The notes under the pieces: generated by a model
Database searches by the model: none
The model's input: only the letters and a program-made list of their open reading frames with translations
What the model was told of the DNA's origin: nothing
Assembly (NCBI GenBank): GCA_017433975.1
Contig: JAFRGD010000012.1
Coordinates: 62,001-126,000, forward strand
DNA from: Mogibacterium sp.
GTDB lineage: Bacteria; Bacillota; Clostridia; Peptostreptococcales; Anaerovoracaceae
Length of the DNA: 64,000 nt
Direction: 5' to 3'
Program-made: the position numbers and the translations under genes
Shown here: piece by piece, positions 54,012 to 58,683 of the stretch
How positions within the stretch are numbered: position 1 is the stretch's first letter
Layout of the letters: the number at the start of each line of letters is the position of its first letter

Positions 54012-54043
54012 TCAAACCGAACTCTTTTGAAATGGCACTAATA
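54012..54043 (+). promoter_or_regulatory. ECF-type promoter-like motif, copy 1 (sigma fusion gene)
   Basis: TCAAACC (54012-54018), 17-bp spacer, CACTAATA (54036-54043). The same elements with the same spacer occur upstream of the next gene at 57594-57625. The block from AATGGCACTAATA to AAGG is shared almost base for base. It is unlike the sigma-A promoters elsewhere in the window. Confidence 0.7.
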
Positions 54044-54162
54044 GACAAAAGGCAAGCAGTCCGAACGCAATTGACAGGCAACGCAGACGAAACATATAAT
54101 GTGTTATGTAAAAACCGTCATTAATCCATTCAGACGCATGTTCATCGGGAAGGTAAAGCTAA

Positions 54163-57100
54163 ATGAGCCAAATGACAGAAATGAACAAAGAATATCTGAC
54201 GAAACAGGTCATCGCATATCAGAACGGCGATGAGGCCGCCTTCGGGCAGATTTATTCGCTAATCAGTGACAAGCTTTTCAGACATGCGATGGTCATGATG
54301 AAAAACCGCTCTGAGGCGGAAGATCTGCTGCAGGATACCATGATCCAGATCGTGAAGTCGATTGGAACCCTCAGAGACCCGGCAGCTTTTACGACGTGGA
54401 GCGTTCAAATCATGCGCAATGTTTACATGCATCAGCTGCGCAAAACCAAGGCCGTGCTGGCACGGGACGAGGAAGATCTGGAAATCATTGAGAACATAAC
54501 AGACGAAGACTGGTCCTACCGTCCTGACACTGTGGTAGACGTCGCTGGAATCGGGGACATCGTCAAGGAAGAGCTGGAGCGGTTGCCGGAAGCGCAGCGC
54601 ACAGCGATGGTCGCTTTCTATTACGACGGTCTTTCGGTTCGCGAGATTGCGGAGATGATGGGCGCTTCGGAGAATACGACCAAGTCGAGGCTTTTTGCGG
54701 GCAGAAAAGCGATGAAGCACGGCATCGAGAAGTACGAACAGCGGACTGGCGTCAGACTGCACGAGTTCGCGCCGGCTTCGATTCTCATCGGCGCGCTGCG
54801 GCAGATCTTTGCAGGCGCAGAGTACACGTTGGGCGCAGCATTGCAGCGGATCTTCCAGCAGGTGGTGGAGGCGACCGGTCTTTCCTTGGCAAAGCTGCCT
54901 GTTCCTAAAACCACGGCGCCGCAGTCGACCCCACAGCCTGGCACGCGGCCGGCGCCGCAGACCGGCACGCAGTCGACGCCACAACAGGCGCCACAAACTG
55001 GTACACAGCCGACGCCGCAGCAGGCTCCACAGTCAGCACCGCAACAGGCGCCACAGACCAGTTCGCAACCGACGCCGCAACAGCCACCGCAGCCTGCGCC
55101 ACAGCAGGCGCCACAGTCCGCGCCGCAGACTGGTACACAGTCGACGCCACAGCAGGTGCCGCAGACCGGCACACAGCCGGCGCCACAACAGGCGCCACAG
55201 TCTGCACCGCAACAGGCGCCGCAGCCTGCGCCGCAGCAGGCCCCACAGTCTGCGCCGCGGCCGACGTCGCAATCTGCCCCGCGGCCGACGCTGCAGCAAG
55301 CACCGCAGCCGACTCCACAACAAGCCCCGCGGCCGACGTTGCAGCCGTCACCGGCACAAACACCAACGTACTCCGCGTCACAGCCGTCACTGGCACAAAC
55401 ACCAACGTACTCCGCGCCGCAGCCGTCACCGGTACAAACTCCAGTGCAGCCGGCGCCGACTCCCGCTCCGGGCAATCCGTCCATGCCGCGCGGCGTTGAT
55501 TCCGCATCTCACGCAGGGGGAATAGAGGATCAGGCGGCAGACAAAGCGGCGGAGGAGGCTCGGCGGCTTGAGAGGCAAAAGGCACGCAAAGCGCAGAATG
55601 ACGACCTTGCGGAGCTCAATCAAAACCGCGCGAAAAACGAGCGGAGGAAAAAGAATATAAGAGAAGAGATGCGGGCCAGCCGTTTCAGGCTGGTCGGCAG
55701 GGCTGCGCTGATCCGCAAGCTGATTGCGGGCCTCCTCGCAGTGGGCTTGCTTGGCGGCGCCGGCGCAGCTGTATTGAAACACTTTGCCGGAGGAGCAAGC
55801 GCTGAACGGATGATCAGCGATTACAGTAAGGCGTACCTGTCAGTGCTCTACATGTATGAGAAAGACATCCGCGATTACGATTGGCAATACTATTTTGATG
55901 TCGAATATCATTATGGCTTTACTGATACGCCTGTGTCGCAGACCGAGGGGGCGCCGGACTTCACAGCGCGGCCTTGTGCTCTGAAGGACATCGATCAGGA
56001 CGGGGTTCCGGAACTGTTCATAATGACTTCTGTGATTGACAGCAGAACCGATTCCGTCGTTGTTCTCGACGCAGACCTGCACATCTTTACATATAAGGAC
56101 GGGAAACTCCGTGAACTGAAGTACGAAATGGACTATCCGGGCGAGCACCCCGCTGAGTATTATGAAGAGTGGTTCGGATATTATGGTATAAACCATAATG
56201 GGCGAATGGTCCATTTCACCACAGGGGTCGATCCTTCTTCGACATATGTGATCTTTACCGGAAAGACCGCAGGGACGCTCTATATCCTGACTACGAATAC
56301 GGGTTCCGAGGAATATGAGATCCGTATGCGGAAGTATTCCATGGAAAGCGACGCCGGCAGCAGCGGACTTTCGATCTTGTCGGAAACGTTTGTCACAGAC
56401 GCGCTGGCGGGAATCTTTACTTCCGATGATCCGGCCGCTGAGATGAACGCCGCGATTGAAGACATGGACGACATGGTTTTGTACGGAGGACAAGAGGGTT
56501 TCTTCTCCTATGGTTCCGGTCAGTACCTGCCGGACGCCAAAACAAACGGCTGGCACAGCGTCGATGACTATGGCAGCGTTTCAATTGCGCCGGAGAAATT
56601 CCAGGGCTGTCTCTCCATGACTTATGATGAGATTGTTGCCTATCTGCTGGGACAGGTCATCGAAGAGGACGATGACAGCAATGGAAGCACTTCCGATGAT
56701 CCGGGAGCATTCGTTCAGATAAAGCGGGACGGGACCCTGGAGCAGGCGGGCAATACGCTGTTCCGATATGACTACGATACCGGCAGGCTGAACTATGGCA
56801 GAATCGGCAGCAAGCTGAACGAATCATTCGACGGGGATGCCGTCGCGGGAATCGGCAGCATTTATTCAGATGGAAACAGCATAGTGTATCTCGCGTATTC
56901 GAACCGTGACGAGTGGTTGGGCGCTCCTACCTATCTTAAGAAATATGATCTCGCAAGCGGAACAGAAGAGCTTTTGTACGAGTTTGAGGGCGTCCCGGAT
57001 CCGAACGTTTCACACTATATAGGAGCAGTGTACGATGGTGTAGCGTATATCGGCTTTACGGACAAGGACAGGCTCTGGGCCTTCAATCTGGAAAGCGGAG

Positions 57101-57510
57101 AGCTTACTGCCTTGAATGAGCACGGATATATGCAGGAGCGGTCCGGTAAGTATGTACTGGTAATGGGCCACAGCACCCTGAACCCGCAGGAATTCATGCC
57201 GGCGGACATATACGAACTCACCGGAGATGGCATGAAGCATGTCGCCAGCCTTGGCAGCAGCGTTTCCGTCGCGACCGATGTCATAGACGGGAAGTTCTAT
57301 TACACCGTTTACTCGGATAACCAGCAGACAGCAGAGGTGCACAGGCGCAATCCGGACGGCTCGGGTGACGAGCAGATTGCGCATTTCCACCTCGACAACG
57401 GGAATAACATCCTGGTGGAAAAATTCACTTCAACGTATTGCATCGTGTGGTTCGGAAGCCTTAAATACAAATACATATATGAAACAGGGGAAGGGATTCC
57501 TCTGAACTGA
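54163..57510 (+). CDS. Membrane-tethered ECF sigma factor with Pro/Gln linker and large extracellular domain
   Basis: A 1115-residue fusion. Residues about 20-90 are sigma-2 ([17 protein letters not shown]), about 130-185 sigma-4 ([27 protein letters not shown]). Residues about 247-440 are Pro/Gln/Ala/Thr repeats of the type [13 protein letters not shown] charged helical stretch precedes a membrane helix (about 519-541). The outer part starts with [12 protein letters not shown] (about 609), an FG-GAP/EF-like motif, and ends in propeller-like repeats ([18 protein letters not shown]). ATG 54163 follows GGAAGG. No separate anti-sigma gene is adjacent. Release by proteolysis or signalling through the helix is inferred. 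Confidence 0.85.
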
Positions 57511-57666: not shown

Positions 57667-58683
57667 ATGGAACAGAAAGTCAAAATGAACAGACTTTGGA
57701 AGATCGTTACTATCCTGTTGCTTGGCATGCTTCTCGTTTCCTGCGGGAGCCCGTCCCCGAGCGATCAGGTAATGAAAGACATCGAGGACTTTAAAAAAAT
57801 CAGTTTCGATGACCTGTTGAGTGAAATGGGCAACGGGGAAGGCGAAGCGCTCTTTCGCGGAATTGTCAGCAATGACAGATATGCAAAGGCGATCTTCGAC
57901 AAGGTCATGGACTTTGACTATGAGATCAACAGCGAAACGATTTCGGAGGACGGAAACTACGCTGAAGTGACGGTCACGATTAAGACGTACCCGTTCGGTG
58001 AAACGAATGCGAAATCAATGGCGGAAATCGCGGTCCAGGCGTTCTTCGGTGGAATCGATTTTGAGGAGGCGGTCGTCGATAATTTTCTGAACCTCAGGGA
58101 AAAGTCTTTCTCCAGGACGGTCGTGATCCACTGCACAAAGACAAACCGCGGCTGGCAGACCGACCTCCGGAGCAACGAAGATTTCGTCGACGGCATCCTG
58201 GGAGGCTCGATTACCGGCGTCAAGGTTCTCGAGGACTTTGTGGAAGATGCGGCGGATGACGTATGGGGTTCCGATGATTACAGCGACGCAGACGCTTCGG
58301 CCGACGCAGACACGGCCGGCGTCCCGGACGGCAACGGGGCGCTGACGCTCGAAGATTACCTGGTGGCAAACCCTGAAGTCGTTTGGAAACTCGAAGAGAC
58401 GCTTTTCGGCGAGGAGTACTATGGAGAAGTCGCGATTGACGGAAACAAAATCATCCTGTTGGTAGACTTTTCTGCCATGTACGGCTCCGATGACGAACTG
58501 GACGATGAAACACTTCCGATGGTTCAGGAGGTGGTTGACGCGGCCTTTGACGATTCCGAGATGGAGATCGGTGAGCAGCTCGGAGCGATCGAGGCGGCGA
58601 CCGGCTTCAGCGGCGTTTCGATGGATGTTATGATCATTCAAGGAGAAACCTTGATCTATGAACGGAGCTTCAGCGCATTCTAA
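57667..58683 (+). CDS. Lipoprotein with a C-terminal DUF4854-like domain
   Basis: A 338-residue lipoprotein (lipobox LVSC, Cys26). The middle domain (about 35-190) is of no family I know; an Asp/Ala-rich linker follows; the last ~110 residues (LEDYLVANPEVVWKLEE...ATGFSGVSMDVMIIQGETLIYERSF) resemble DUF4854 of Firmicutes lipoproteins. ATG 57667 follows GGGGAGG. It carries the same promoter motif as the sigma fusion upstream, so it is a likely target and possible sensor partner. Confidence 0.8.
   Translation: MEQKVKMNRLWKIVTILLLGMLLVSCGSPSPSDQVMKDIEDFKKISFDDLLSEMGNGEGEALFRGIVSNDRYAKAIFDKVMDFDYEINSETISEDGNYAEVTVTIKTYPFGETNAKSMAEIAVQAFFGGIDFEEAVVDNFLNLREKSFSRTVVIHCTKTNRGWQTDLRSNEDFVDGILGGSITGVKVLEDFVEDAADDVWGSDDYSDADASADADTAGVPDGNGALTLEDYLVANPEVVWKLEETLFGEEYYGEVAIDGNKIILLVDFSAMYGSDDELDDETLPMVQEVVDAAFDDSEMEIGEQLGAIEAATGFSGVSMDVMIIQGETLIYERSFSAF

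Follow-up and report, generated by a model that had tools for sequence, protein, structure and literature searches.

One gene in the window, the 64,000-nucleotide stretch of Mogibacterium DNA analysed here, encodes a sigma factor, a membrane helix and a large outer domain as a single chain. We consider it probable that the product is a one-chain transmembrane receptor with an ECF sigma output, most likely freed by cleavage, that activates its own gene and the adjacent surface-protein gene. The architecture, its conservation, the sharing of its ectodomain with other proteins and the conserved sites tied to the gene are directly established; together the shared ectodomain and the sites suggest a receptor-sigma that probably activates itself and adjacent surface-protein genes, with sensing, inhibition, cleavage and site reading as inferred steps. 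If this is true, a surface signal in gut Clostridia reaches the sigma factor by way of a single protein, which could both sense outside and switch genes on, in a class of bacteria across which similar fusions are widespread.

The sigma part was identified by several models. Sigma70_r2 (residues 36-96) scored 43.3 bits against a Pfam cut-off of 24, Sigma70_r4_2 (residues 134-184) scored 53.9 bits against 25.7, and the NCBIfam sigma70-ECF superfamily model scored 81.2 bits against 42.9; the closest solved structure is SigW (5wuq, E 1.8e-16). With sigma-2 ending at residue 96, sigma-4 starting at 134 and a short linker between them, the layout is that of an ECF (group 4) sigma factor, and the Pfam scan of the protein returned no sigma-1.1, sigma-3 or further sigma-region family. 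Residues 514-538 form the sole strong hydrophobic segment of the protein. Nine K/R residues flank it on the N-terminal side and two on the C-terminal side, so the sigma is predicted to be cytoplasmic and the C terminus outside. The approximately 570 residues beyond the helix, predicted to be outer, end in a predicted beta-propeller. The 1115-residue frame thus bears out an earlier note on this DNA, which had proposed that sensor, tether and sigma factor are one chain. The note's Pro/Gln linker of about 190 residues holds for the repeat itself (residues 250-440 contain 53 P and 49 Q, with zero D/E and zero Cys), but the full linker from the post-sigma-4 box to the helix is about 270 residues long.

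Table 1 Features of the receptor-sigma locus in the window, and orthologs of the receptor-sigma.
Feature	Position	Strand	Basis
ECF-like promoter site 1, TCAAACC-N13-ATGGCACTAATAGACAAAA, upstream of sigma gene	54012..54050	+	Ortholog conservation; reading by this sigma putative
Sigma-A-like housekeeping promoter, 12/12 match to TTGACA-18-TATAAT	54071..54100	+	Consensus match only
Receptor-sigma gene, 1115 aa	54163..57510	+	Single ATG-started ORF; four full-length orthologs
Sigma-2 domain, aa 36-96	54268..54450	+	Pfam PF04542
Sigma-4 domain, aa 134-184	54562..54714	+	Pfam PF08281
Post-sigma-4 box, aa ~186-245, candidate built-in regulator	54718..54897	+	Ortholog conservation
Flexible linker, aa 246-513, P/Q repeat then K/R-rich stretch	54898..55701	+	Composition
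Single membrane helix, aa 514-538, N-in	55702..55776	+	Hydrophobicity; positive-inside rule
Ectodomain part 1, aa 546-850, DIDxDGxPELFxM module	55798..56712	+	Common to lipoproteins and Ser/Thr kinases
Ectodomain part 2, aa 855-1115, predicted beta-propeller	56725..57507	+	AlphaFold, Foldseek
ECF-like promoter site 2, TCAAACC-N13-ATGGCACTAATATACAGAA	57594..57632	+	Ortholog conservation
338-aa lipoprotein, lipobox LVSC, probable target gene	57667..58683	+	No Pfam family
Ortholog L146, uncultured Lachnospiraceae, 1184 aa			Alignment-based scan of named genomes
Ortholog L147, in G130 (RUG10605)			
Ortholog L148, in G072 (Eubacterium sp. RGIG546, dairy cattle duodenum)			
Ortholog L149, Lachnospiraceae UBA3863, 932 aa			Alignment-based scan of named genomes

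A repetitive linker in a draft genome could reflect a frameshift, misassembly or chimeric gene model, and the earlier note had named two genes joined in this way as a finding that would overturn it. A single-protein query against genome contigs gave no matches; a scan of named genomes with an alignment brought in L146 and L149 besides the orthologs of family genomes G072 and G130, whose frames of 997 and 1061 codons, respectively, have both ends conserved. The four orthologs, from MAGs of other Clostridia genera, are 932-1184 aa long, 36-47% identical and alike in domain order. All four (L146-L149), in assemblies other than that of the window, carry sigma, linker, helix and ectodomain in a single frame, dozens of paralogs share this one-frame architecture, and GC3 is uniform along the window gene (0.57-0.73). 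We therefore rejected the artefact reading, which is already refuted as far as the architecture goes and retains a negligible probability.

Identity of the orthologs to the window protein is 39-51% in the ectodomain and 38-65% in the sigma part, and both sigma domains are kept with invariant residues. This conservation, the sigma scores far above their cut-offs and the promoter-like sites that accompany the gene make it very improbable that the sigma fold has been reused for a non-transcriptional role or that the fusion is decaying, a reading with nothing direct in its favour beyond the existence of a membrane relative with sigma-4 alone (L084, below). The linker behaves differently. Its length (92-307 aa) and composition (P/Q, E/P or T/A/G) vary among the orthologs, which marks it as a spacer and not a conserved repeat; we accordingly rejected the long Pro/Gln linker as the functional core, and the importance that the earlier note gave to the Pro/Gln repeat as such is not supported.

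The post-sigma-4 box of about 60 aa is kept across the orthologs, whereas the linker after it varies. Short ordinary ECFs terminate 9-27 aa past sigma-4 and fused ECFs run on; many TM-fused ECFs, and not the short ones, carry a motif related to the box, [RK]L[HY]xxAPxP. The box is unlike the known anti-sigma domains in Pfam and is a candidate for the part that holds the sigma off; the AlphaFold model of the sigma part has a mean pLDDT of 56, too weak to judge docking of the box on the sigma. Pfam recognised no anti-sigma domain in the protein, and no anti-sigma family was found among the neighbouring proteins scanned with Pfam and NCBIfam, in agreement with the earlier note, which had seen no such gene next door. 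The residues ahead of 545 include no Cys and hence no zinc-binding anti-sigma motif; with no Pfam zinc finger either, a fused zinc anti-sigma was rejected. If our reading is true, the protein offers an anti-sigma-free case for how a fused extension keeps a sigma factor off.

The ectodomain of the window protein matches no Pfam family. Its first half (ALKDIDxDGxPELFxM...) is found again on lipoproteins (L078, L080, L081, L085, L086, L088 and L089), on two transmembrane Ser/Thr kinases from related genomes (L079:1980-3956 and L083:835-3351, both on the minus strand) and on a 538-aa protein (L084:1451-3064, minus strand) in which a sigma-4-like domain alone is followed by a K/R/E-rich stretch, a TM helix and the outer module. 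The last may be a membrane-bound transcription regulator that arose from a sigma factor. Being common to lipoproteins, two membrane kinases and a sigma-4-only membrane protein, the module behaves as an interchangeable sensor. The second half is modelled by AlphaFold with pLDDT of about 70-93 (pTM 0.73 for the whole model), and Foldseek matches it to propellers at E of about 1e-6 with TM-scores below 0.4, so that beta-propeller is assigned as a fold class only. Other members of the TM-fused clade described below bear WG repeats or DUF5640/lipocalin-like ectodomains, with sub-cut-off matches to DUF5050 and FG-GAP, over a constant sigma and TM helix. Such swapping, and the occurrence of an outer domain on both sigma and kinase outputs, is a receptor-like pattern. 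Near the sigma gene, a lipoprotein gene (window:59792-60694) encodes an FG-GAP-like motif, DLNNDGLPDL, of a kind resembling the receptor outer module.

An element, AAATGGCACTAATAnACAnAAGG, lies once before the sigma gene and once before the next gene, and a whole-genome search with a core version, allowing up to two mismatches, returned only these two exact matches. Ortholog comparison lengthened it to TCRAACC-N13-WYGGCACTAATATACAGAA. Each of the five orthologs, the window protein included, has this bipartite site ahead of the sigma gene (as a degenerate copy in L148); four of the five also have it ahead of the next gene, L146 lacking the second site. Exact copies occur in 3 of 350 family genomes, just those encoding an ortholog; the motif was built from these three genomes, so the independent parts of the result are the 347 remaining genomes, which lack exact copies, and the held-out L146 and L149. 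In the held-out PWM test L146 scored 33.2 bits and L149 26.6 and 38.3 bits, where the best shuffles gave 14.6-18.1 bits and none of 2000 each reached these scores; 12 of 2000 scored as well as the upstream copy in L148. All scores above 22 among the 2.15 million positions scanned belong to these sites. One exact copy alone, the second in G072, lies away from the sigma gene (L139:1500-1560, on G072:C250); it precedes a gene for a secreted protein of 436+ aa, a candidate distant regulon member.

ECF promoters usually have an AAC-type -35 element, and CRAAC, separated from GGCAC by 16 nt, agrees with this form. The conservation of CRAAC with ECF-like spacing upstream of the sigma gene marks a candidate autoregulated promoter. 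The sites might instead be operators or promoters of another regulator, with the fused sigma reading other promoters; binding of the sigma to the sites is putative, and the conserved stretch extends beyond a minimal -10 element (TATACAGAA). We regard this as improbable, given the bipartite ECF-like form, the confinement of exact copies to genomes with an ortholog, their position flanking only this gene (L139 excepted) and the lack of any sigma-54 in the search that follows. A sigma-54 reading of TGGCAC was rejected: the spacing is off the sigma-54 consensus, and no Sigma54_DBD was detected in the three ortholog genomes (77-83% complete). The sigma-A-like promoter falls between site 1 and the ATG and, to judge by its consensus match, would supply basal sigma. 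A second 12/12 sigma-A-like promoter (window:58751-58779) lies near the listed TTG start of an HTH-Uma2 gene; translation probably begins instead at the ATG farther downstream (MKVSQLKARK).

The next-gene products differ among the orthologs. In the window and L148 they are lipoproteins with marginal similarity only (E about 0.02), and in L147 and L149 they are homologous membrane proteins (E 5e-69). The latter pair (L147:7597-8439 and L149:8871-9692) are multi-TM proteins, 41% identical, whose genes immediately follow the sigma gene with the site in front of them; they belong to no Pfam family. When duplicated sites near the paralogs were sought generically, nothing emerged beyond a probable terminator repeat (L121) and chance words.

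In the mechanism that we propose, the ectodomain, comprising the DIDxDG module and the propeller, would sense something at the cell surface, while the membrane helix and the post-sigma-4 box would keep the sigma inactive or off its promoters. Upon signal, the chain would most likely be cut at or near the membrane by regulated intramembrane proteolysis. The N-terminal sigma so released would bring RNA polymerase to TCRAACC-N13-WYGGCACTAATA promoters, raising expression of its own gene and of the adjacent surface-protein gene. The conserved promoter sequence would then be a ready readout of the signal. A site-2-protease-family (M50) gene is present, as it is in 14 of 14 controls; M50 proteases are near universal, which makes this weak evidence for release.

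CadC and ToxR are membrane-bound one-component regulators that act while anchored. By analogy the sigma might never be cut, being freed from inhibition while still anchored and recruiting RNA polymerase at the membrane; the unstructured ortholog linkers of 92-307 aa would provide reach, and no dedicated protease gene was recognised next door. We judge this unlikely, if the most serious of the alternatives. In other clade members the stretch separating sigma-4 from the helix is just ~26-124 aa, so long reach is no clade-wide need, and IutY of Pseudomonas putida, the studied TM-fused ECF, is freed proteolytically by Prc/RseP and activated by truncation (PMC8999054). For SCO4117 (ECF52) of Streptomyces, proteolytic release and positive autoregulation have been proposed (PMC5826349). 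By analogy with these two proteins, release by intramembrane proteolysis is likelier than tethered action and we rank it first; the protein would, if our reading is true, also bear on whether a sigma factor can work while anchored.

The earlier note had suggested a search for sigma-2/sigma-4 plus TM architectures in Clostridia; run here, it found such fusions to be widespread. Among the 110 top sigma matches in the 350 family genomes (E<=1e-15), 69 lie in frames of at least 330 aa, numbering up to seven per genome, and long sigma fusions are present in further families of a class sample. In a tree of 114 sigma domains built by a quick method, all 56 TM-fused sigmas examined, the window protein's among them, sit within one group of 60 (SH-aLRT 92, not starred) that spans several families of the class. 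The TM-fused label changes 4 times on this tree versus 38 in shuffles; given the quick method and the long branches, origins are narrowed only to 'one or few'. The architecture is therefore not the exception that the earlier note had made of it, being one branch of a large Clostridia clade, with TM-fused ECFs known elsewhere too. Somewhat tentatively, we suggest a broad and essentially unstudied Clostridia class of transmembrane receptor-sigmas, arising from one ancestral ECF-helix fusion followed by ectodomain swapping (some ectodomains being common to receptor Ser/Thr kinases), with inhibition by the post-sigma-4 box replacing an anti-sigma and with tiny autoregulated regulons of adjacent surface proteins. 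The route from surface signal to sigma would then be repeated up to seven times per genome with exchangeable sensors.

TM-fused ECFs are already known from Actinobacteria and Pseudomonas, and the window clade is a variant with precedent in ECF52/48/53, IutY and possibly ECF262. Like ECF52 (SCO4117), ECF48 and ECF53, the window protein joins an ECF sigma to a TM helix C-terminal to it and a large outer part. ECF52, reported from Actinobacteria only (PMC5826349), has a zinc-finger (ZAS-like) domain, and its Pro-rich region lies outside, between the TM region and a carbohydrate-binding module; the clostridial protein has no zinc finger, its Pro-rich part is cytoplasmic and precedes the helix, and its ectodomain holds neither that module nor another Pfam family. 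IutY (ECF243) likewise unites sigma and membrane regulator in one chain, but its anti-sigma belongs to a siderophore cell-surface signalling system; the window protein, from a host lineage of Gram-positive type, has no recognisable anti-sigma. ECF262 (type SFB89493.1, Ruminococcus albus) is a clostridial group for which a regulatory extension is listed, its mechanism unstudied (PMC8999054 Table 2); likened by group description only, it may contain the clostridial TM-fused clade. Also by description, ECF57 and planctomycete ECFs with WD40 extensions share a C-terminal propeller-type extension, but belong to a different phylum, have WD40 repeats and are proposed to act through protein interaction. 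SigV/RsiV (released by intramembrane proteolysis), SigW and other sigma factors paired with a membrane anti-sigma, and SigI/RsgI couple surface sensing to an alternative sigma as two separate proteins, in contrast to the single chain here. The literature searched, with the main ECF classification (Casas-Pastor 2021) outside it, held no description of the clostridial receptor-sigma clade; the bipartite ECF-like site that accompanies the gene in five orthologs is new in this analysis.

Further fused ECFs were noted. The window genome has a second TM-fused ECF (G000:C5:15748-16731; L005, L054) of 536-542 aa with a DINGDGTDEL-type outer domain, and plasmid searches gave ordinary sigma matches only. 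A subfamily of short TM-fused ECFs (L037-L049 and L132-L138; 343-465 aa) includes several with a CxCGHxNP-type outer domain, and ECF matches, mostly fused, number about seven apiece in four genomes (G020, G192, G199 and G372).
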